This document shows positions 15,927 to 25,609 of a stretch of 32,805 nucleotides of DNA, piece by piece. Below the pieces are notes generated by a model that worked only from the letters and a program-made list of their open reading frames with translations, ran no database searches and was not told the origin of the DNA. How positions within the stretch are numbered: the stretch's first letter is position 1; each line of letters starts with the position of its first letter. The stretch comes from Thermoproteota archaeon (GTDB taxonomy: Archaea > Korarchaeota > Korarchaeia > Korarchaeales > Korarchaeaceae), in NCBI GenBank assembly GCA_027491785.1, contig JAOZGJ010000025.1, positions 1-32,805 of the forward strand. Direction: 5' to 3'. A program made the translations under genes and the position numbers.

Positions 15927-16831
15927 GTGTCCCTTCCCCTCCCGATAAGCTCTCTAACCGATAGGTTTTTCCTCTCCAGATAATTAGAAAGTCCGTTTAG
16001 TATCTCCCCGAAGACCTCTAGTCCCCTCGTCATGATAGCCGTACCTACTCCAACGGCCTTAGCTCCCGCGAGCAGCATCTCTGCAGCATCTCTCCAACTT
16101 TCCACACCACCCGTCCCAATGACGTCGGAAATTGGAGCTAGCTCGTAAACACTTCTCACGGCAACTGGTCTTATTGCAGGTCCGCTTAATCCCCCTACCT
16201 TATTGGAGAGGACTGGGACCATGGCATCTACATCTATATACATTGCTCTCAAGGTATTGATGGCCGTGAGGCCATCCGCTCCCGCCCTCACAGCAGCTTC
16301 CCCTAGAGATCTTATATCAGATGTCATGGGAGTTAATTTCACTAAAAGAGGAATTCTGATAGATCTCCTGACTACTGCTACAAGTTCCTCAAGGGAATCG
16401 GGGGTACCACCTATCTCCAAGCCATGCCCCTTAACATGAGGGCATGATGCATTGATCTCTACTGCATCGACCCCAGCATCTTGGAGCCTTCCTGCTACAT
16501 AGGCGACTTCCTCAGGAGTTCCTCCACCTGCGCTGCCTATTATGGGTATGCTTATCTCTGATCTGGCCTCAGCCAGTTCCCTTTCGAATTCCTTTATACC
16601 GGGATTTGGAAGTCCCATGGCATTTATCAAGCCGAAAGGTAGCTCCACCACAACTGGATTATCATAGCCCCTCGTTGGCTCAGGAAGGATCGTCTTAGTG
16701 GTTAGTGCTCCAGCTCCTGCTTGTTCTACTCTCTTAAGCAATGAAGGGTTATTTCCCAGTATACCAGATGCCAATACAAGGGGGTTTCTCAATTTAAGAC
16801 CTGCTACTTCGGTCTCCAGTAATGCCTCCAT
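15923..16831 (-). CDS. pyrD: Dihydroorotate dehydrogenase, class 1B-like
   Basis: This flavoprotein oxidises dihydroorotate to orotate in pyrimidine synthesis. The product is about 302 residues. The opening GLKLRNPLVLASGILG binds FMN. AMGLPNPGI, SAGGGTPEE and the catalytic-loop cysteine in VEINASCPHVKGHG follow, then LLVKLTPM, GLSGPAIRP and the phosphate-binding IGTGGVESWRDAAEMLLAGA. A cysteine as catalytic base is characteristic of class 1 enzymes. Class 1B partners (PyrK) are not seen in the window. ATG 16831 is used here and TTG 16840 is possible, since neither has ideal Shine-Dalgarno spacing. It overlaps scpB by 38 nt and runs into the UPF0282 gene. Confidence 0.92.
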   Translation of the reverse strand: MEALLETEVAGLKLRNPLVLASGILGNNPSLLKRVEQAGAGALTTKTILPEPTRGYDNPVVVELPFGLINAMGLPNPGIKEFERELAEARSEISIPIIGSAGGGTPEEVAYVAGRLQDAGVDAVEINASCPHVKGHGLEIGGTPDSLEELVAVVRRSIRIPLLVKLTPMTSDIRSLGEAAVRAGADGLTAINTLRAMYIDVDAMVPVLSNKVGGLSGPAIRPVAVRSVYELAPISDVIGTGGVESWRDAAEMLLAGAKAVGVGTAIMTRGLEVFGEILNGLSNYLERKNLSVRELIGRGRDT

Positions 16832-17303
16832 TCTCCCCAACCTTCTCGATTCTGAACAGGAGAGAGAACTTTTTAGTTGTTCTGTATATCCTCATCCTTC
16901 CCTTCCGATTCTCCCTCACTAGGCCCAACTGAATCAATCTCCTGATGTGCTGCCTAGCAGAATTGCCCCTAACCCTAACTATCTCGGAAATAGTTACCGG
17001 TTCGTTAGCAGCTATCAAAGCGAGCGTCCTAATCTCTGATTTAGATAACATCTTCTGGGGGAAGAGATGGGCTAATTTTTCCTCAAACTCCCTCCTTAGG
17101 ATCATAATCCATCCATCCCCAACCCTCTCTATATAAAAGGGATGGGGTGATAGGGACTCATTTATCTCAGAGATAGCCTTCTCTATCGCCGGACCTGTGA
17201 GTCCCGTAATCCTTTTTATGTCAGAATCTCTGATTACATCCCCAGAGGCAAATAATGCGGCTTCAAGTAACCTTTTGGCTCTTTCCCATGACTCAATTTC
17301 CAT
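16794..17303 (-). CDS. scpB: Segregation and condensation protein B
   Basis: The product is 169 residues with two winged-helix domains, as in ScpB, the dimeric partner that binds the kleisin ScpA within SMC complexes. The first domain runs from RAKRLLEAALFASGDVI to about residue 75. The second begins with LSKSEIRTLALIAANEPVTISEIVRVRG, which is the usual ScpB consensus region, followed by LIQLGLVRENRK. The charged tail ends RSSRS. GGAGGG lies about 8 nt before ATG 17303. It is downstream of smc and scpA in the same direction, 62 nt after scpA. Confidence 0.92.
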   Translation of the reverse strand: MEIESWERAKRLLEAALFASGDVIRDSDIKRITGLTGPAIEKAISEINESLSPHPFYIERVGDGWIMILRREFEEKLAHLFPQKMLSKSEIRTLALIAANEPVTISEIVRVRGNSARQHIRRLIQLGLVRENRKGRMRIYRTTKKFSLLFRIEKVGENGGITGDRSSRS

Positions 17304-17365: not shown

Positions 17366-17890
17366 TCAGGGCTCCCTTCCCAGTACTACGTAGATATCAT
17401 CGAACGGTTTATCTTGAAGGAGCTCTACTTCCCCATCCCTTTCCATGAATAACAAGGATACTAAGGCGGGAACGATTTCCTCTCTCGATGAAACCAATTC
17501 ATAAAGGGAAACTACCCTTCTCCCTCTACTTCTGAATGAGAGGAGCCTCTCCTTAACAGCTCGTATCTCCTCGATTAGATCCCATTTCGTTATCATCGAT
17601 ATATTAATAGATCTGGCTGCTTCCCTCAACTTCCCTCTAACCCATCTGAGGGCTGTTATTAATTCAGATCTTACGGGATATCTCCGTGGTATCCTCCGTG
17701 ATCTCATCTCTATTACCACATCCTTCCTTAGATTTCTCAAACTATGGGGCTTCCTCGCTTCGTGCCTTCCAGAGGATAGATATTTGATTATGTCAGCCCT
17801 CAGCCCTCTAGCCAATGATAATATCCTTCTGCCAGCTTTTGCTATATCTCTATCCCTCATAAATTCAATCCATACATCTTGCGGATTCAT
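17366..17890 (-). CDS. scpA: Short ScpA-type kleisin
   Basis: At 174 residues this is shorter than most ScpA proteins (about 220-270). ScpA links the two SMC heads and is bound by ScpB. The C-terminal winged-helix is clear (SSREEIVPALVSLLFMERDG, then VELLQDKPFDDIYVVLG, matching the ScpA consensus end). The middle is basic, with many Arg residues. The N-terminal SMC-neck-binding part is reduced. It starts at ATG 17890, overlapping the TAA stop of smc (TAATG), so it is translationally coupled to smc. The position between smc and scpB makes the assignment firm despite low motif strength. Confidence 0.87.
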   Translation of the reverse strand: MNPQDVWIEFMRDRDIAKAGRRILSLARGLRADIIKYLSSGRHEARKPHSLRNLRKDVVIEMRSRRIPRRYPVRSELITALRWVRGKLREAARSINISMITKWDLIEEIRAVKERLLSFRSRGRRVVSLYELVSSREEIVPALVSLLFMERDGEVELLQDKPFDDIYVVLGREP

Positions 17891-20193
17891 TAGGCGGCCT
17901 CCTTTGATATAGCAACTATCTTTGACTGACCATCTCTCATTGTAACACCTATTAGGTGATCTGCTTCCTCAAGTGATTCCTTCTTCAGCGATATTACAAT
18001 AACTTGGGCTTCCTTAGAGAGTTCCTTCAGAGCTTTAGCGTACCTCTTACAATTAACCCCATCTAGCATGGAGTCAGCTTCATCGAATATGTAGAGAGGA
18101 GAGGGCCTTAACCTCTGGGCTGCCAGAATGAAAGCTATCGCGCTCAGGGATTTCTCACCTCCAGAAAGTGAGTCTATGGAGACAGGCTTCTTTTCAGGTA
18201 ACCTTATCCTCATTTCTAGCCCTCTATCTGTGAGTTCCAAGCTTCCGCTCCCTCCTCCAAATATTATCCTTATCTCTTGATCGAATGCTTCCGAGAGCTT
18301 TCGTAGGGTCTCAGCTATTATATTCTCTCTCTCACCATCTATCCTCTTTATAAGCTCCATTATCTCCTCCTTTCTCTTGGAAAATTCCTCATACTTCCTT
18401 CTTACAAGATCATACTCCCTTTTTCTACTCTCATATTCCTCCTCAGCTCTTAGGTTAGCCGGTCCTATGATGCGGAGCTTAGCCTGAATAGATGCTATCT
18501 CTCCTATGGGATCTGCAACTTCCAGCGGATCCACATCACTCATTTTCTTAAGCTCTGATTTCAAAGATTTCACTTTCTCCTTTATCATCCCTTTTTCTTC
18601 GCTTATCTCCTCCATTTTAGCTATATATTGCCTCCTCCTGTAAAGAGCCTTCTCATACTCTCTCCTTAGACGATAAACCGTTTCTCTTAGGGACTTTAAC
18701 CTGTTCAGGTTTGAATCTATCTCCGGTAAGCTTGAAATCTCCTCCTCTTTTTTATCTATCTCCTCTGATATTTTTTTAAGATCGTTCTCCAGTAGAGAGA
18801 GGTCTCTCCTTATCTTATTTACCCTCTCCATATCCCTCTCAGGTTTTCCAGCTAGAAGGCTCCCTTCCCTTTCAAAGATCTCTCCCCTCATTGTAACGAA
18901 CCTAGCTTTGCCCACGAGATCCTTTCCTATATCATCCAAATCGTTCATTAGAATTGCATTAAATAGGAGCTTTGCAAGGGATTCAAATCTCTTATCGTAT
19001 TTCAGGAACCTATAAAGGGGACCCATAGATCCTACAATACTGGGAGGATCCCTCGGCCTTATCACATCCATCGGTATTATCCTAAATCTGCCCTTATATT
19101 TCCTCAATTTCCTAGCTATCCTTTTCGCTCCTTCTAAATCCTCTACTACAATGTCATTTAGCCTATTTCCTCCAACAGCTAGGTAAGGGATCTCATATCC
19201 CTCAAGAGGAGTGATTAGCTGAGAAACAATACCTAGAAAAGAAGGATCCTCCTCAACCACGTTGGGCACTACTCTCTCCCTAACTAATACACTCAACTCC
19301 TCCTTCTTTGCATTTATAGCTTCTTCAAGGGCCTTTCTCTGTCTTCTAAGTGATGAAATATCGGCCTCTAACTGTTTTCTCTTCCTCACAGGTGATTCTC
19401 TAACTAAGTCTTCAAGCTTCCTTAATTCAGCTTCCTTATCCTCCAATTCTCTTCTTAGGGAGTCTATATCGTCTAGATCCTCCTCTACTTTAAAGTTCTC
19501 AATATAATCAAGCCTTCTATTGAGATCATCGAGTTTCTTTAGGAGAAGGTACTTCTTTATCCCTCTTAACCTCGCTTCTAGCCTCCTTCTCTCTTTCAAT
19601 GTTTCTATCTCGCTTAAGGCTCTATCCAACTCCCTCTTCCTCTCCCTCAGCATTATAGATATCTCTCTTAAGGATTGATCCACTTTAGAAAGCTCTTCCA
19701 ATGCCCTAGCCTTCCTCTCATCGTATTCAGCTACCCCACTGATCTCCTCAAGCAGTCGAACCCTATCCTTAGGCGACATCTCCACGATGCTTGTTATATC
19801 ACCCTGAGTCACGAACGTATATTTATCCGTGACAAAACCTAACTCGGAGAGGAGATCAAAGGCGTCGTTAGCGCTAGATCTTTTCCCATTAATCCTATAA
19901 ACGCTCTCCCCATTTGGCCTAACCTCTCTGATGATCTTCACTTTCTCCGATGAATTATTTAAGGTCAGAGCCACATAACCTGATTTAGATCCTTTCCTAA
20001 CTAAGTGCTCTAATCTGGAGGCCCTAAGCCTCCTAGCCCGCCATCCCATAACGAAGGCTATAGCATCAAGTATGTTACTCTTCCCAGAGCCATTGGGTCC
20101 TGTGATGGCAATTAAACCCGGAGGAAGAGGTATCGTTACTCTGCTGAACGATTTGAAGTTCACCATCTGGATGCTATCAATGGCCGCTTTCAT
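17890..20193 (-). CDS. smc: Compact SMC chromosome-structuring ATPase
   Basis: This ATPase folds and segregates chromosomes. Only 767 residues are present, against about 1150-1200 in usual SMC proteins. All functional parts are intact: Walker A GPNGSGKSN (32-40), Q-loop FVTQGD (127-132), signature LSGGEKSLSAIAF (676-688) and Walker B PLYIFDEADSMLDG (699-712). A recognisable hinge lies at about 315-450 (VGGNRLNDIVVEDLEGAKRIA, later FEREGSLLAG). The coiled-coil arms are only about 150 residues (165-312) and 165 residues (455-620), roughly half the normal length. It has its own likely promoter and forms an operon with scpA and scpB. It is not Rad50: no zinc hook CxxC is present. Confidence 0.94.
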   Translation of the reverse strand: MKAAIDSIQMVNFKSFSRVTIPLPPGLIAITGPNGSGKSNILDAIAFVMGWRARRLRASRLEHLVRKGSKSGYVALTLNNSSEKVKIIREVRPNGESVYRINGKRSSANDAFDLLSELGFVTDKYTFVTQGDITSIVEMSPKDRVRLLEEISGVAEYDERKARALEELSKVDQSLREISIMLRERKRELDRALSEIETLKERRRLEARLRGIKKYLLLKKLDDLNRRLDYIENFKVEEDLDDIDSLRRELEDKEAELRKLEDLVRESPVRKRKQLEADISSLRRQRKALEEAINAKKEELSVLVRERVVPNVVEEDPSFLGIVSQLITPLEGYEIPYLAVGGNRLNDIVVEDLEGAKRIARKLRKYKGRFRIIPMDVIRPRDPPSIVGSMGPLYRFLKYDKRFESLAKLLFNAILMNDLDDIGKDLVGKARFVTMRGEIFEREGSLLAGKPERDMERVNKIRRDLSLLENDLKKISEEIDKKEEEISSLPEIDSNLNRLKSLRETVYRLRREYEKALYRRRQYIAKMEEISEEKGMIKEKVKSLKSELKKMSDVDPLEVADPIGEIASIQAKLRIIGPANLRAEEEYESRKREYDLVRRKYEEFSKRKEEIMELIKRIDGERENIIAETLRKLSEAFDQEIRIIFGGGSGSLELTDRGLEMRIRLPEKKPVSIDSLSGGEKSLSAIAFILAAQRLRPSPLYIFDEADSMLDGVNCKRYAKALKELSKEAQVIVISLKKESLEEADHLIGVTMRDGQSKIVAISKEAA

Positions 20194-20235: not shown

Positions 20236-21177
20236 TTAGGGAATGAAGAAGTATGCTATGGAGAAGGAAGCCAGATATACAGAGCTAGATTCTATGGTAA
20301 ACCCTATGGGCTTCGATGAGAGGATTACAGATACAAGACCCGATATCAGGAGTAGTAGAGGAAGATCTTGAGGTATTCCCGCAAATCCCAATAGGGGAGA
20401 TGACATAACCTTCATGATTATCACGTTGGATATGCCAATAGCGGATGATATAACCAAGGTCATTGCCTTCAGGGATCTTATCCTAGCGTTCCAAGCGCTC
20501 ATGATGCGATTGAATTCCTTCAACATGTTCGACACCTTCCTCATTACCGAAGCCAGCATCTTTCTATCAGATATATCCTTAATAATCTCCGCCCATTCAG
20601 GTAGCTTGACGCTATAGAGGAAATCATCGACCACCAACCTCTCATAGTATCCTAAACCCTTCAGGGCATATATTCTTCCACTTCCCCTTTCCAAGGATGA
20701 AGCTACCGAATCAGCTGCTGATGGATCTTCCTTGATAACTCCCATGTCAAGGCTAGGGATTATGGGATAGAGCAGGAGGAGCATGAGGAGATGGTAGAAC
20801 CTAATCCCCACCCTGCCTAGACTAATCGCCAAGGATATGCCAACCGATATGGACATGCCAAGGGTTAAAACGAGGTAGATCCATCTCTCCCTAGATATCG
20901 CATCTGCTTCCAGTAACTGCGATATGAGGGATAAAGAAGAACTGAGAGCGGACTCAGGATCTCCTCCCTCCACTACGCTTGAGAGTATCCTTCCGAGATC
21001 TCCCAATCCCCTCTTATTCAGGGAATTCTTGGCCCTCTCCCCCTCCACAGCTACCTCCTCGTAAGCAGATACCATCTTCAATCCCAGAGCTGGCGATGAA
21101 ACCCAACCTAATACCAGCTTCTGGGCCATCTTAGCCTTGGTAAGGTAGCTCTGAAGCCCTCCTAGAAACTTCCTCAT
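20236..21177 (-). CDS. TadC/GspF-like membrane protein of a type IV pilus-type system
   Basis: The product is 313 residues. It starts with an amphipathic cytoplasmic region, then hydrophobic segments at about 102-121 (YLVLTLGMSISVGISLAI) and 127-146 (FYHLLMLLLLYPIIPSLDMG). A second cytoplasmic helical region (about 160-240) is followed by further segments (AMTLVISSAIGISNVIIM, LPLLLLISGLVSVIL, VYLASFSIAYFFIP). The alternation of cytoplasmic helical bundles and membrane pairs is that of the inner-membrane platform protein of pilus and archaellum motors. It is about half the size of archaeal FlaJ/PilC platforms and resembles single-unit TadB/TadC. Identification leans on the adjacent ATPase gene, with which it overlaps by 47 nt. 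Confidence 0.68.
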   Translation of the reverse strand: MRKFLGGLQSYLTKAKMAQKLVLGWVSSPALGLKMVSAYEEVAVEGERAKNSLNKRGLGDLGRILSSVVEGGDPESALSSSLSLISQLLEADAISRERWIYLVLTLGMSISVGISLAISLGRVGIRFYHLLMLLLLYPIIPSLDMGVIKEDPSAADSVASSLERGSGRIYALKGLGYYERLVVDDFLYSVKLPEWAEIIKDISDRKMLASVMRKVSNMLKEFNRIMSAWNARIRSLKAMTLVISSAIGISNVIIMKVMSSPLLGFAGIPQDLPLLLLISGLVSVILSSKPIGFTIESSSVYLASFSIAYFFIP

Positions 21178-22510
21178 TGGTATAAGCTCCCTCCAGTTCT
21201 CTAATGTAGCTTAACCAGACAGTAGAAGGGGAAGGAGGGTCGTACCAAGATCCATCTACCCAATACCTGATCTCAGCTACCTTCCTATATTCCATTCTGA
21301 CCGCGAGAGTTTTCTCTGGTAATGTCAGGCCCCATGACGACCATTTAAATACTAGACCGCTGAAGTCCTTGGCATGGGTCGTGGCTAATACCCTTAGCCC
21401 ACTGAAGGAAGTCATATCTAGAGCTTCAGCTTGCTCTTTTCCTAGAACTTCACCTAGAAAGACTAGGTCTGGATTTCTATGTAGGAGAAACCTAACAAAA
21501 TCGTACTTACTTGAAGTGACCTCATATGGCGTGTGATGCATCCCGTACTTCGTCAGGTCCTCTATCTCCCTAACCTCCTCAACGCTTACTATCCTGAGAT
21601 ATCTAGGTAGGCTGGCTAGGATGGAATTCGAGAGAGTAGTCTTACCTACTCCCGTCCTGCCGAATATGAGTACCGGATCACCACTGTTCAGTCTATCGAG
21701 AATCGTCGCAGCCTCGTAGCTGTCTATAGTTCCTAGGGAAATAAGCCTAGGTAGACTTAGCTTCGACATAGAGCTTAAATTCCTGATATCCGCTGCCCCA
21801 AGCGATGCCGGAGGCATATCTAATGCTATCCTGAAGTGAAAGTTACCTAGGATGAGATCTACTTCTGAGAGGGGAGATCTTATATCTAATCCAGCGTTTA
21901 TATCCGCCTCTATCAGGGTAACTAGCTTCTCCAAGTCAATCTCATCCAATACGTAATTCTTTACAGCGAATCTACCATATTCAACGTGGTCTAAGTAGAG
22001 GGGACCTAGGAAATGAACGTATCCCTCAGTAACGTCTTCGGATGTCATTATAGCGAGAAGAGGCCAGATCTTGGTCGATCTTATGGCCGCTTCCTCCGCT
22101 AAATATGTGTATTCATCTCCCAAGCCGATCTCATCCAGAATCTCCATAGCCCTCCTCGTCCTCAATTGAATTGATTTCCATATGAGATCCCCCTGCGAAT
22201 CGTATTCAGTTGGATAGATTCCCTTAAGCATTGTAGACAGAAGAATGGAAGCCACTTGCCTTCCTTTAACTAAAGAATTAGGAAAAGCTAGTGCATCACT
22301 CCCTTTAACCTTTAAAAATCCTCCTAAGAACTTTAAATCCCCTGAGATATTCACAGATCTCGTCTCTAGCTCTTTACAATTTCTCCTCAATAAGGACCTA
22401 ATTCCCCTCGGTTTAATACCTAGAGCGAGTTTTAATGCATCACCTTTGCACCTAACTAGGAGATCCGACGCTACTCTTTCCGCTTCCTTCTCCCTGATAT
22501 CTGTTAGCAT
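21131..22510 (-). CDS. Type IV pilus / type II secretion-family ATPase (VirB11/GspE-like)
   Basis: The product is 459 residues with a long N-terminal domain (1-250) and a C-terminal RecA-like motor. Walker A is FGRTGVGKTTLSN (283-295). The Asp-box region reads VSVEEVREIEDL (309-320), Walker B DLVFLGEVLGKEQAEAL (348-364), and the His-box ATTHA (377-381). The family's usual GEIRG is GEVLG here. Such ATPases drive pilin assembly or retraction. GGGGAGG 7 nt before ATG 22510 supports the start. It lies between a small membrane protein and a TadC-like platform, overlapping both, so the four genes from 25609 to 20236 are one unit. Confidence 0.87.
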   Translation of the reverse strand: MLTDIREKEAERVASDLLVRCKGDALKLALGIKPRGIRSLLRRNCKELETRSVNISGDLKFLGGFLKVKGSDALAFPNSLVKGRQVASILLSTMLKGIYPTEYDSQGDLIWKSIQLRTRRAMEILDEIGLGDEYTYLAEEAAIRSTKIWPLLAIMTSEDVTEGYVHFLGPLYLDHVEYGRFAVKNYVLDEIDLEKLVTLIEADINAGLDIRSPLSEVDLILGNFHFRIALDMPPASLGAADIRNLSSMSKLSLPRLISLGTIDSYEAATILDRLNSGDPVLIFGRTGVGKTTLSNSILASLPRYLRIVSVEEVREIEDLTKYGMHHTPYEVTSSKYDFVRFLLHRNPDLVFLGEVLGKEQAEALDMTSFSGLRVLATTHAKDFSGLVFKWSSWGLTLPEKTLAVRMEYRKVAEIRYWVDGSWYDPPSPSTVWLSYIRELEGAYTNEEVSRRASELPYQG

Positions 22511-23135
22511 GCCCTTGCCTCCCCAATGCTACCCCTAGCAGAGATGCCGCCAAACCGAGTGTGATTATCGGTAAGGCTTCCCAGCCCTTCAGCCTGTATG
22601 CTTCAACGGATACCGGATATCCCAATGGATTGTAAAGCAGGATCGAGTAATCACCGCAAGGAACTGTTATGAAATCTCCATCCCTCGATATATTCGCATC
22701 TCTAGGGGCATCTTCCTCAATGTCGTAGATCACCGAGGGGACTTCAGATCTAATCGTAACGTTCCAATTTCCTTCCTCAACTGGGATTAGATATCCCCCA
22801 TCTACGAACTCCTTCGTCATGTTGAGAGAAGCGTTATAATTTTCTATTATGAGGGAGAGCTTCCCCTCGCTCCCCCTGATGAGAGGAAAGGACACGTCGT
22901 TTTCTCTAATGCTAGTACCTCTTCCCAAGTATCTAATGTTTAATTTCCTTAAATCAATGCATAGGGAGCCGTTAGCCCTTAGAATCAAAGTAGTTCCATT
23001 ACATGGAAATATCTCGTAGGTCCCACTCTCTATTGTCGATTTTAATATAGCTTCTCTCTTCATGGACTCCAGAGATCCAAATAATAGCAGAAAGATACCT
23101 ATCCCTACCACAATGTAGGGCAGTATTTTCCTCAT
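22452..23135 (-). CDS. Membrane-anchored extracellular protein of the pilus-type cluster (unknown family)
   Basis: The product is 227 residues. An N-terminal membrane helix (about 4-22, ILPYIVVGIGIFLLLFGSL) is followed by an extracellular beta-rich domain with several NxT/S sites (NGTTL, NYNASLN, NWNVT). A second helix (about 188-206, LPIITLGLAASLLGVALG) and a short basic/Ser tail follow. No family was recognised. ATG 23135 overlaps the stop of the preceding Ig-repeat gene by 4 nt (ATGA), and its end overlaps the ATPase start by 59 nt, so it is firmly part of the cluster. An accessory or anchoring protein for the pilus-type apparatus is a reasonable inference. Confidence 0.72.
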   Translation of the reverse strand: MRKILPYIVVGIGIFLLLFGSLESMKREAILKSTIESGTYEIFPCNGTTLILRANGSLCIDLRKLNIRYLGRGTSIRENDVSFPLIRGSEGKLSLIIENYNASLNMTKEFVDGGYLIPVEEGNWNVTIRSEVPSVIYDIEEDAPRDANISRDGDFITVPCGDYSILLYNPLGYPVSVEAYRLKGWEALPIITLGLAASLLGVALGRQGHANRYQGEGSGKSSVGSPS

Positions 23136-25609
23136 GACAACCTCCTCCTGATTATCAGGTAGGCCAGAAGCATGATGGCTATGAGCATCATTGTGGCATC
23201 TGGCGCTATATTCCCCCTTTCCTTCCTATTTTGAGTGTAGACCATGCATCTAGCTGAGAACCTCTTTATCTCCCCTACTGTCCTTTGACTGTTAGATATG
23301 GTAGATGTGCTGTACCCTCCTTCCTCCATCCTCTGAAAATGATGCATATAGGTCTCATTTTCAGGGTTGACTCCTAGGACTTCGAAATCTAACTGACCAA
23401 ATTTAACGTTACCATCGCTTCTATATACCCACCTGACAGACCAGTTACCGGCAGCATCAACTAGGAGTTGTATGACCTTTCTCCTAGTTATTGGAAGATC
23501 TTTTACGATTTCACGGGATGGGTTCAATATCCATAGGCGTCCCTTAACTCCTCCCGAGGGTACGGCAATTACGGCGACATTCTGACCAACTAATGGATTG
23601 GAAGGTATCACTCTAACGCTAAGTCTTCCTTCGGTATGAGTAGGCAGTTTAGATCCTATCTTGCTCGATGTCTTGTTCTTATATGGGGTAGGCTGCTCTT
23701 TAGTGGAAGTAGAAGTTAAATTATTGAGATCTTCAGTTTTTTGAGGTTGCTCGCTTACAGTTCCTCCTGTATCTGCTTTTCCAGTACTAGTAGAGGTCTG
23801 TGTGGGATTATTAGTGATATATGTGGTTGTGGAAGTAGTAGAGGTAGTAGTTGTCGTAGTGCTAGTCTGTCTGTGAACTATGACCGTTCTACTGGTAGAT
23901 GCCTTGGCTCCATCAATATCAACAGCATCTGCAACTATATCTAACCGAGAAGCATCTAAGGGAACCGAATATTGAGCAGTTCCCTCATCTTTAAAGTGAT
24001 AGACTGAGTTATTGATGCTTAAAGTTATCTCCACGCCGGGAGAATCATCTGAAGCCCTTACATGCACGGAGATATCATCTCCGGGCTTAACTTCTTTCCT
24101 ATCCAGCGATATATCCACCTTAGGAGGCTTATTTTCTAGAAGGATGTTCCAGATCTTTGAAACGCCACCAAAATCGTTCTTAGCCACGACTTTTACCTCA
24201 TACTTTCCCGCCTTAACATAACTCGGGATTTCAATTGTGTAGGAACCTTCCCTCCTCACATCGATCTCCTTATCCATATAGCTTATGGAGCCGGAGACAC
24301 CTTTCCCTTTGATCTTTATGGTATATTCATCTCCCCTGTGGACGGTGGATGGTATATCTCCCTCAATAGTTGGAGGGCTCCCGACCTCTATCTGAGCATC
24401 GGAGTAAGCAGTAGCTCCATCTATATCTATTGCTTCCGCTTTCACGGACAGATTTCCTTCAAAATCATCCGGGATTCTATATGATATGGTACCCCCGCTC
24501 TCGCTTAAGTTCCATTCCCTATGAATACCGCTTCCACTTACAGAAAGCGAGACCTTCAACCTTGTAGAATCATCCTGAGCGGATACGCTTATCTTTACAC
24601 TTTGACCTGGAGCTGCCTTCTCCTTATCTAAACTTAATGTCACTTCAGGGGGTATGTTCACTATCTCAGTGTCCCAGATACCATTGCTTGATCCATCTAC
24701 ATCTTTAACTACTGCATTTAATGTGTAATGCCCAGCAGTTACATCTCTTGGAACCTTAACGATGTTATCTCCCTTTACGAGGCTGTACTTCTTGCCAAAG
24801 GCCGATAGACTACCACTTACGGAATCTCCATCGCTCTCGCTGACGGTAAACTTCATAGAATCCGACCTGTGGACTTGGGAAGGTACATTTGCATTGATCT
24901 TAGGTGGGCTTCCCATAACCGTAAATGAGCGGGTCTTACTATCTGTAGCGGAGACGCCGGAGTAATACTTATACACACTGAATGTCACGCTTTTAGATCC
25001 TGCTGGCTGGTCTATGAAGTTTACAGACACGTATTTCCTGAAACTACCTCTGGATATCCTATCTAGTGAGTAAGTATGGGATCCAAGCTTAGCTGAAACA
25101 GTTAGGGAACCAATCCCATCATCTATAGATCCAAGGCCGCTTACCTCCAATGCTATTCTGTCCCTTTTACTTATGATGCTAGGTGATATGCTAGCAGACC
25201 AAGATCTCGGAATGGCTACTATATATGACCTCCCTAGGTTTATTGTATCTGAATCGGAGTATCCATTCACTTGGCATGTGATGGTTATCGAGAGATCCGC
25301 ATATTCCCCCGGAGATTCTCTAATCCAGATATAAACACTACCGCTTTTCGAGCTCTTTGAAATACTCTCGGATATGAGTTCTATGTTATTCCCCTTTACA
25401 TCAACGCTTAAATCCGTATTACTGGGATCGCTCGTCGTTAGGTCGAACCAGAACTTCACTATGAAATCCCCTGGATTTGTAGCCTGCGGCATGCTAGAGG
25501 GGTTAGATCCCGTGAACCTGATAGAGCATCCCGATCCCTCCACTCGAGGGGACCAGGGAAGAAAGAGGACAACAAGCAAGAGGATCACTACACTGATGGC
25601 TCGCATCAT
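23132..25609 (-). CDS. Secreted, membrane-anchored Ig-like repeat protein with Thr-rich stalk
   Basis: The product is 825 residues. A signal peptide (about 1-25, ending RVEG-S) precedes two or three beta-sandwich regions. Then comes an A-B-A-B set of Ig-like repeats: A at about 235-318 and 411-494 (NVPSQVHRSD and DIPSTVHRGD), B at about 319-410 and 495-580 (LSLDKEKAAPGQSVKI and ISLDRKEVKPGDDISV). A Thr/Ser-rich stalk (about 582-660) suggests O-glycosylation. Another sandwich domain and a C-terminal helix (about 803-820, MMLIAIMLLAYLII) with RRRLS anchor it. It is the first gene of the pilus-type cluster. A surface adhesin or filament-associated protein is likely. ATG 25609 or 25606 may be used. 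Confidence 0.83.
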   Translation of the reverse strand: MMRAISVVILLLVVLFLPWSPRVEGSGCSIRFTGSNPSSMPQATNPGDFIVKFWFDLTTSDPSNTDLSVDVKGNNIELISESISKSSKSGSVYIWIRESPGEYADLSITITCQVNGYSDSDTINLGRSYIVAIPRSWSASISPSIISKRDRIALEVSGLGSIDDGIGSLTVSAKLGSHTYSLDRISRGSFRKYVSVNFIDQPAGSKSVTFSVYKYYSGVSATDSKTRSFTVMGSPPKINANVPSQVHRSDSMKFTVSESDGDSVSGSLSAFGKKYSLVKGDNIVKVPRDVTAGHYTLNAVVKDVDGSSNGIWDTEIVNIPPEVTLSLDKEKAAPGQSVKISVSAQDDSTRLKVSLSVSGSGIHREWNLSESGGTISYRIPDDFEGNLSVKAEAIDIDGATAYSDAQIEVGSPPTIEGDIPSTVHRGDEYTIKIKGKGVSGSISYMDKEIDVRREGSYTIEIPSYVKAGKYEVKVVAKNDFGGVSKIWNILLENKPPKVDISLDRKEVKPGDDISVHVRASDDSPGVEITLSINNSVYHFKDEGTAQYSVPLDASRLDIVADAVDIDGAKASTSRTVIVHRQTSTTTTTTSTTSTTTYITNNPTQTSTSTGKADTGGTVSEQPQKTEDLNNLTSTSTKEQPTPYKNKTSSKIGSKLPTHTEGRLSVRVIPSNPLVGQNVAVIAVPSGGVKGRLWILNPSREIVKDLPITRRKVIQLLVDAAGNWSVRWVYRSDGNVKFGQLDFEVLGVNPENETYMHHFQRMEEGGYSTSTISNSQRTVGEIKRFSARCMVYTQNRKERGNIAPDATMMLIAIMLLAYLIIRRRLS

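Follow-up and report, generated by a model that had tools for sequence, protein, structure and literature searches.

It is debated what determines the step size of SMC motors and whether their arms take part in the work. The best-described systems close to the one analysed here are the Smc-ScpAB complexes of Bacillus and Pyrococcus. In the survey of Burmann et al. 2017 (PMC5344682), the arm lengths of prokaryotic SMC proteins fall into modes at 238, 341 and 515 residues, possibly with minor modes at 163 and 423, and the B. subtilis arm is given as 344 residues. Engineered B. subtilis Smc with shorter arms worked at 253-267 residues and arms shortened to intermediate lengths failed; the part of that paper available to us mentions no functional window below 253-267 residues. 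The head-proximal joint, located at residues 188-253 and 922-1011 of the B. subtilis protein, was linked to rod opening (PMC5526789), and a simulation study (PMC9122525) that shortened the arms no further than from 50 to 40 nm saw little effect. In archaea, Jeon et al. 2020 (PMC7055376) did not find ScpA-ScpB binding in six archaeal pairs; their survey includes three Korarchaeota species in which smc adjoins scpA, and the accessible part of the paper does not discuss arm length.

Here we analysed a 32,805-nucleotide stretch of Korarchaeota DNA (the window). It comprises the whole of contig C51 in a draft genome of 1.79 Mb (114 contigs, estimated contamination 6.96%). A preliminary description of the window had proposed an intact SMC protein with roughly half-length arms next to a short ScpA.

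Results

An intact SMC protein in 767 residues

The SMC protein and its partners are listed in Table 1, where the coordinates of the SMC domains were computed from residue numbers. Pfam SMC_N matched residues 5-756 (4.8e-59, exceeding the Pfam cut-off), and SMC_hinge matched residues 318-420 (1.3e-16; 61.5 bits against a cut-off of 22.5). In an alignment of 10 short SMC sequences, G32, N34, G35, G37, K38, S39 and N40 together with R57, Q130 and G131, SGGEK at 677-681, and D704, E705, L710 and D711 were invariant, and we take these residues to be the Walker A, Q-loop, signature and Walker B/D-loop motifs. The ABC-type head motifs are divided between the two ends of the protein, as in condensin-type SMCs. 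At the end of the hinge, where Gly-Gly is usual and important, the alignment shows Ala-Gly. In the PDB, Foldseek ranked highest the SMCs of cohesin and condensin, along with the head and joint of the P. yayanosii SMC (5xei). Two NCBIfam equivalog models for prokaryotic SMC did not reach their cut-offs (TIGR02169, 474.7 bits against 729.4; TIGR02168, 418.2 bits against 567.35), a formal miss that is expected if arms are missing. The ATPase motifs and the hinge are all present, in agreement with the preliminary description.

Table 1 Features of the smc locus in the window.
Feature	Coordinates	Strand	Description
smc	17890..20193	-	767 aa, ATG start, half-length arms; from ORF, Pfam, alignment and AlphaFold2
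HeadN, residues 5-158	19720..20181	-	Walker A GPNGSGKSN 32-40, Arg57, Q-loop Q130
N arm, residues 159-318	19240..19719	-	joint helix ~175-234, then 84 residues to hinge
Hinge, residues 319-450	18844..19239	-	Pfam SMC_hinge and alignment
C arm, residues 451-629	18307..18843	-	joint ~524-603, includes stretch LRIIGPANLRAEEEYE
HeadC, residues 630-767	17893..18306	-	signature SGGEK 677-681, Walker B/D-loop 704-711
scpA (kleisin)	17366..17890	-	174 aa, with the C-terminal winged helix and a shortened N-terminal domain
scpB	16794..17303	-	169 aa; Pfam SMC_ScpB 4.1e-33, over cut-off

Arm length

Arm boundaries were fixed at four alignment columns, which correspond to D158, F319, K450 and L630 of the window SMC. 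By these boundaries the N arm is 160, the hinge 132 and the C arm 179 residues long (arm mean 169.5, ratio 0.89). Among the 46 SMCs compared, the arm means were 164.0-175.5 in 19 Korarchaeota SMCs, 185.5-197.5 in six archaeal SMCs outside the window's phylum and 340.5-365.5 in 17 long archaeal SMCs; the other four rows (G042, G044, G046 and G047) were assigned to neither length class, being hinge-less, truncated or misaligned or containing a large insert. Two Bacillus species have arms of 349/372 residues (mean 360.5). The two near-equal arms of the window protein are halved, and the AlphaFold2 helices come close to the ~150 and ~165 residues estimated earlier. A larger set, extended by 77 complete frames out of 80 named loci, gave the same pattern, with arm means of 252-259 in six rows (Spiroplasma, Bacilli, Clostridium and Tenericutes) and of ~360 in most of the rest; several of its rows (e.g. 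L088, L142 and L112) are fragments or have wrong starts and were not interpreted.

Because the two Bacillus species measure 360.5 here and B. subtilis 344 in PMC5344682, the published scale lies ~16.5 residues lower. On that scale the window arm is ~153 residues, the measured short SMCs of other phyla are ~169-181 and the six bacterial rows ~236-243. The window protein is thus far from the ~340-345 residues of a typical arm, a value that is not strictly defining since prokaryotic Smc includes other lengths, such as the 238 mode (PMC5344682). Its mean arm is 191 residues below that of Bacillus, which equals 1.9-2.1 of the 91-99-residue periods described in the same paper. Hydrophobic periodicity, computed without a shuffle control, agreed only by half: it peaked at 3.5 in the C arm but at 3.15, and more weakly, in the N arm.

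Joint and missing segment

When the window SMC was aligned to the 1186-aa Bacillus SMC (L117), the joint fell on residues 175-234 and 524-603, and the distance from joint to hinge was 84/73 residues as against 266/246, so that ~182 and ~173 residues, roughly two superhelical periods, are absent from the mid-arm. As judged from this alignment, the head-proximal joint is retained and the shortening falls between joint and hinge.

The AlphaFold2 model (mean pLDDT 85.3, pTM 0.52) has N-arm helices at 155-227, 243-265 and 268-305 and C-arm helices at 453-488, 494-550, 562-576 and 583-645. The C-arm helix lengths (36, 57, 15 and 63) are like those in the model of an Aenigmatarchaeota SMC, L080 (35, 59, 18 and 63), and in each model both strands are broken at 35-41 residues from where the arm meets the hinge; the two models are not independent, since they were built from alignments of the same 36 sequences. 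The N arm of the window model has a second, larger break at 228-242, which L080 does not have, and confidence is low around the breaks (pLDDT <50 at 227-230 and 233-239). From helix rise, the arm was computed to be ~22-24 nm long, compared with ~50 nm. With an assumed stiffness, the same bend would be ~2 times costlier in a 23-nm than in a 50-nm arm and still cost <3 kT, so the bending arithmetic excludes nothing.

Conservation within Korarchaeota

A complete SMC was present in 19 of 29 Korarchaeota genomes, three had one cut by a contig end, and seven had no canonical SMC. All 19 complete proteins have short arms, including that of the single-contig genome G010, and their open frames are 758-802 aa long except in G026 (frame of 954 aa, SMC given as 951 aa; L028:1486-4341), where the N-terminal region of an intein is inserted at Walker A. 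The seven genomes without canonical SMC are G013, G025 (completeness 91%) and five others with a completeness of 66-78%, and a Pfam hinge match was absent in all seven. In the tree, which contains 66 of the 119 alignment rows chosen for spread, with near-copies and odd rows left out, the 16 Korarchaeota SMCs included from the 19 formed one clade (SH-aLRT 100).

In all 11 complete members of the genus, the N arm measures 158-161 residues and the C arm 177-179. Relative to the window SMC, five of its ten relatives in the genus show no gap in the arms at 49-64% arm identity, and the other five show gaps of 1-2 residues; in this alignment the arms have diverged in sequence at an almost fixed length. 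A similar constancy is seen in long SMCs (351/372 in many rows from Clostridia), and the constancy in the genus therefore reflects a general fixed-length rule of SMCs at a shorter value. Compared with G003, dN/dS was 0.090 overall (dS 1.5); with gap columns dropped, the N arm alone gave 0.069 (dS 3.1, near saturation) and the C arm 0.211; dS against the other three relatives was mostly saturated. These ratios indicate that the smc gene of the window is under purifying selection.

The preliminary description had asked whether relatives share the length, and had named a gap or assembly error within the arms, or relatives near 1150 residues, as possible objections. The length is shared throughout the complete Korarchaeota SMCs, there was no sign of a gap or error given 18 other complete short copies and a dN/dS of 0.09, and no long SMC of ~1150 aa was found among the 29 Korarchaeota genomes, the greater length of the G026 protein being due to its intein region.

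One member of the genus, G013 (99% complete), carries a 185-codon SMC remnant (L043:6475-7032) at the place of smc-scpA-scpB, with parts of both head halves and an altered Walker A, followed by the dehydrogenase and TmcA genes in the usual order. The ScpB and hinge families had no match in this genome, and ScpA had none within the 13-kb locus. G013 appears to have lost SMC and ScpB, and the complex seems dispensable there, as only the remnant is left. Separately, the window genome and several relatives encode a second SMC-like protein of ~540-680 aa (G000:C90, at L003:2-1606; L058; L056), which SMC models match best, at scores far under their cut-offs.

Short-armed SMCs in other archaea

Four further sampled archaeal phyla were each searched with their own short SMC (E <= 1e-30, genomes at least 80% complete), and open frames of 805-935 aa were found in 83 of 99 genomes. 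In the phylum of G045, 15 of 19 genomes have a complete open frame of 845-935 aa; in that of G039, three of three have frames of 833-846 aa; and in that of G041, 15 of 20 are complete at 838-876 aa, three of these with one internal stop. The phylum of G054 has 805-861 aa in 50 of 57 genomes, the rest being two at 1353 and 1386 aa, one in two pieces and four without a match. The named Aenigmatarchaeota record L080 clusters with G054 in the tree (SH-aLRT 86), so the phylum of G054 is probably Aenigmatarchaeota. Arms outside Korarchaeota were measured on one or two members per searched phylum, plus G043. Short arms are thus not unique to the window and also occur in several other archaeal groups. 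A single origin of the short SMCs of Korarchaeota and the other phyla could be neither demonstrated nor excluded (p-AU 0.254), and the p-AU for the seven other short SMCs alone was 0.151. In the two longest frames of the phylum of G054 (1353 and 1386 aa; G088 and G131) the match begins at residue 37-38, which suggests a possible intein at the same site as in G026.

A hinge-less archaeal SMC family was also observed (L057:4654-6837, L164, L165 and L166, from G042, G080 and G079, and the pieces L167 and L168 from G081), with 725-744 aa in three complete copies. PF06470 had no match at E <= 0.01 in the family in four of four genomes, the aligned middle regions of three copies showed no CxxC hook, and ScpA adjoins the gene in all four genomes. 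A Ryanbacteria SMC of 748 aa (L082:4884-7130) aligns with little or no hinge and may be another hinge-less form.

ScpA, ScpB and gene neighbourhood

The smc and scpA genes overlap by a single base (17890), which ends the smc stop codon and begins the start codon of scpA. After smc come ScpA, ScpB, dihydroorotate dehydrogenase, a metallo-beta-lactamase-fold protein and TmcA, and the order SMC-ScpA-ScpB was seen in 8 of the 11 larger Korarchaeota loci examined. The region upstream of smc (20236-25609) encodes a type II/IV secretion ATPase, a protein of 313 aa with no match in Pfam, and two more proteins; the first two of these are likewise found upstream of smc in three of the 11 loci (L039, L040 and L046). 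ScpB scored 77.4 bits with TIGR00281, under the cut-off of 89.2.

The window ScpA alone reached 19.2 bits in Pfam, under the cut-off of 24.6, and 9 of 14 members of its family match Pfam ScpA at E <= 1 (best 8.3e-14). The 14-member profile matches the SMC-head-bound ScpA 4i99_C (E 4.9e-12), and the C-terminal winged helix for the SMC head cap is present. Profile positions 12-87 match residues 45-119 of the ScpA N-domain 6ivh (E 7.8e-5); the window protein is without the conserved DPWDIDI stretch preceding the matched N-domain and keeps the rest.

The 174-residue length given for this ScpA in the preliminary description is correct, and its association with the short arms did not hold. ScpA proteins beside short-armed SMCs of other phyla (L080, L033, L034 and L035) have an ordinary length of 234-248 aa, those beside long SMCs range over 199-402 aa, and the 225-aa ScpA of G026, whose arms are equally short, has the N-terminal stretch as NPWEIDI. 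The link is ruled out by the proteins of the other phyla and of G026, and the shortening of ScpA is a separate event, since G026 combines short arms with the N-terminal stretch.

Discussion

Based on the intact motifs, the hinge, the joint, the halved arms, the conserved length, the purifying selection and the scpA-scpB operon, we consider the window SMC, with a probability of about 80%, to be a genuine, functional archaeal SMC that organises chromosomes together with a kleisin and belongs to a class with naturally short arms. By homology and established SMC biology, two such proteins would dimerise through the hinge and be linked at neck and head cap by the kleisin ScpA, forming a ring with arms of ~22-24 nm rather than ~50 nm. 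On binding ATP, the heads would engage and the arms would splay via the retained joint, and hydrolysis would return them to a rod, DNA being moved or captured as in longer SMCs. The reach per cycle would be shorter if, as we suppose, arm length sets both reach and step; the different step size or ring proposed in the preliminary description may reasonably be inferred from arms of this length. More tentatively, and with less than even odds, half-armed SMCs in at least five archaeal phyla might form a separate mechanical class, in which the joint plus about one superhelical repeat to the hinge suffices for a motor taking steps about half as long, and which lies at the lower size limit of natural SMC motors.

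An unlikely alternative is that the protein is a static clamp or bridge, which holds DNA segments topologically without translocation or loop extrusion because its lumen is too short for segment capture. B. subtilis Smc with improper arms hydrolyses ATP and reaches loading sites without relocating along DNA, and the functional windows in PMC5344682, as far as its available part describes them, stop above the arm length of the window protein, both of which favour a clamp. Against this, arm length in the genus is constant to a few residues, as expected if arm geometry still matters, and the joint, which was tied to rod opening in PMC5526789, is retained.

It is far less probable still that the protein is a repair-type SMC-like ATPase (Rad50, RecN or the archaea-specific SMC-related protein, ASRP) and not a chromosome organiser. 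It does match these families, with 111.8 bits for ASRP, 102.1 for Rad50 and 55.3 for RecN, scores which are far under the cut-offs and about four times lower than those of the SMC models; moreover, a true SMC hinge is present, ScpA and ScpB adjoin, and separate Rad50-sized frames of 903-965 aa with an SMC_N match occur in Korarchaeota. Membership was accordingly rejected for ASRP (NF045487, cut-off 300), for Rad50 (best score against a cut-off of 700, and an SMC hinge in the middle) and for RecN, and no MukB or MksB was among the 25 of 73 NCBIfam families listed. That the short arms reflect an assembly error, an internal deletion or a decaying gene in the window genome alone can be practically dismissed: the genome is indeed a contaminated draft in many contigs, but relatives from separate genomes, the single-contig G010 among them, rule out an error, and the dN/dS rules out decay.

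The short-armed SMC is a true natural form of a known motor, conserved and not confined to the window, and its value is that of test material rather than of a new kind of system. The clade keeps arms of ~153 residues on the scale of PMC5344682, under the functional windows reported in the engineered B. subtilis series. With the short- and long-armed archaeal SMCs, natural proteins are at hand in which reach, step and lumen size can be related to the length of the arm. The comparison suggests that the joint can stand below about one repeat of coil, so that a long mid-arm is not universally required.

At the level of titles and abstract openings, no published account of short archaeal SMC arms was found except for the length histogram in PMC5344682. 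Its 163-residue mode is termed possible and minor there, and the available part of the paper names no lineage or protein for it. The window SMC (~153) lies below this value and the other short archaeal SMCs (~169-181) above it; since the calibrated lengths flank 163, the short class was already visible, tentatively, in print, and the mode may be made up by the short-armed archaeal lineages. Like the hinge-less SMC of marine Actinobacteria (PMC12153180), the window SMC is a natural remodelling of the SMC rod, but it retains the hinge, and only the G042 family resembles the actinobacterial form. With the archaeal Smc-ScpA binary complexes (Jeon et al. 2020, PMC7055376) it shares the adjacency of smc and scpA, to which the window operon, as known from its genes, adds scpB. 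In common with the Smc-ScpAB of Bacillus and Pyrococcus, it has the head motifs, the joint, the hinge, two near-equal arms and adjoining scpA and scpB genes, and it differs from Bacillus in its arms (160/179 versus 349/372 residues) and in the distance from joint to hinge (84/73 versus 266/246).
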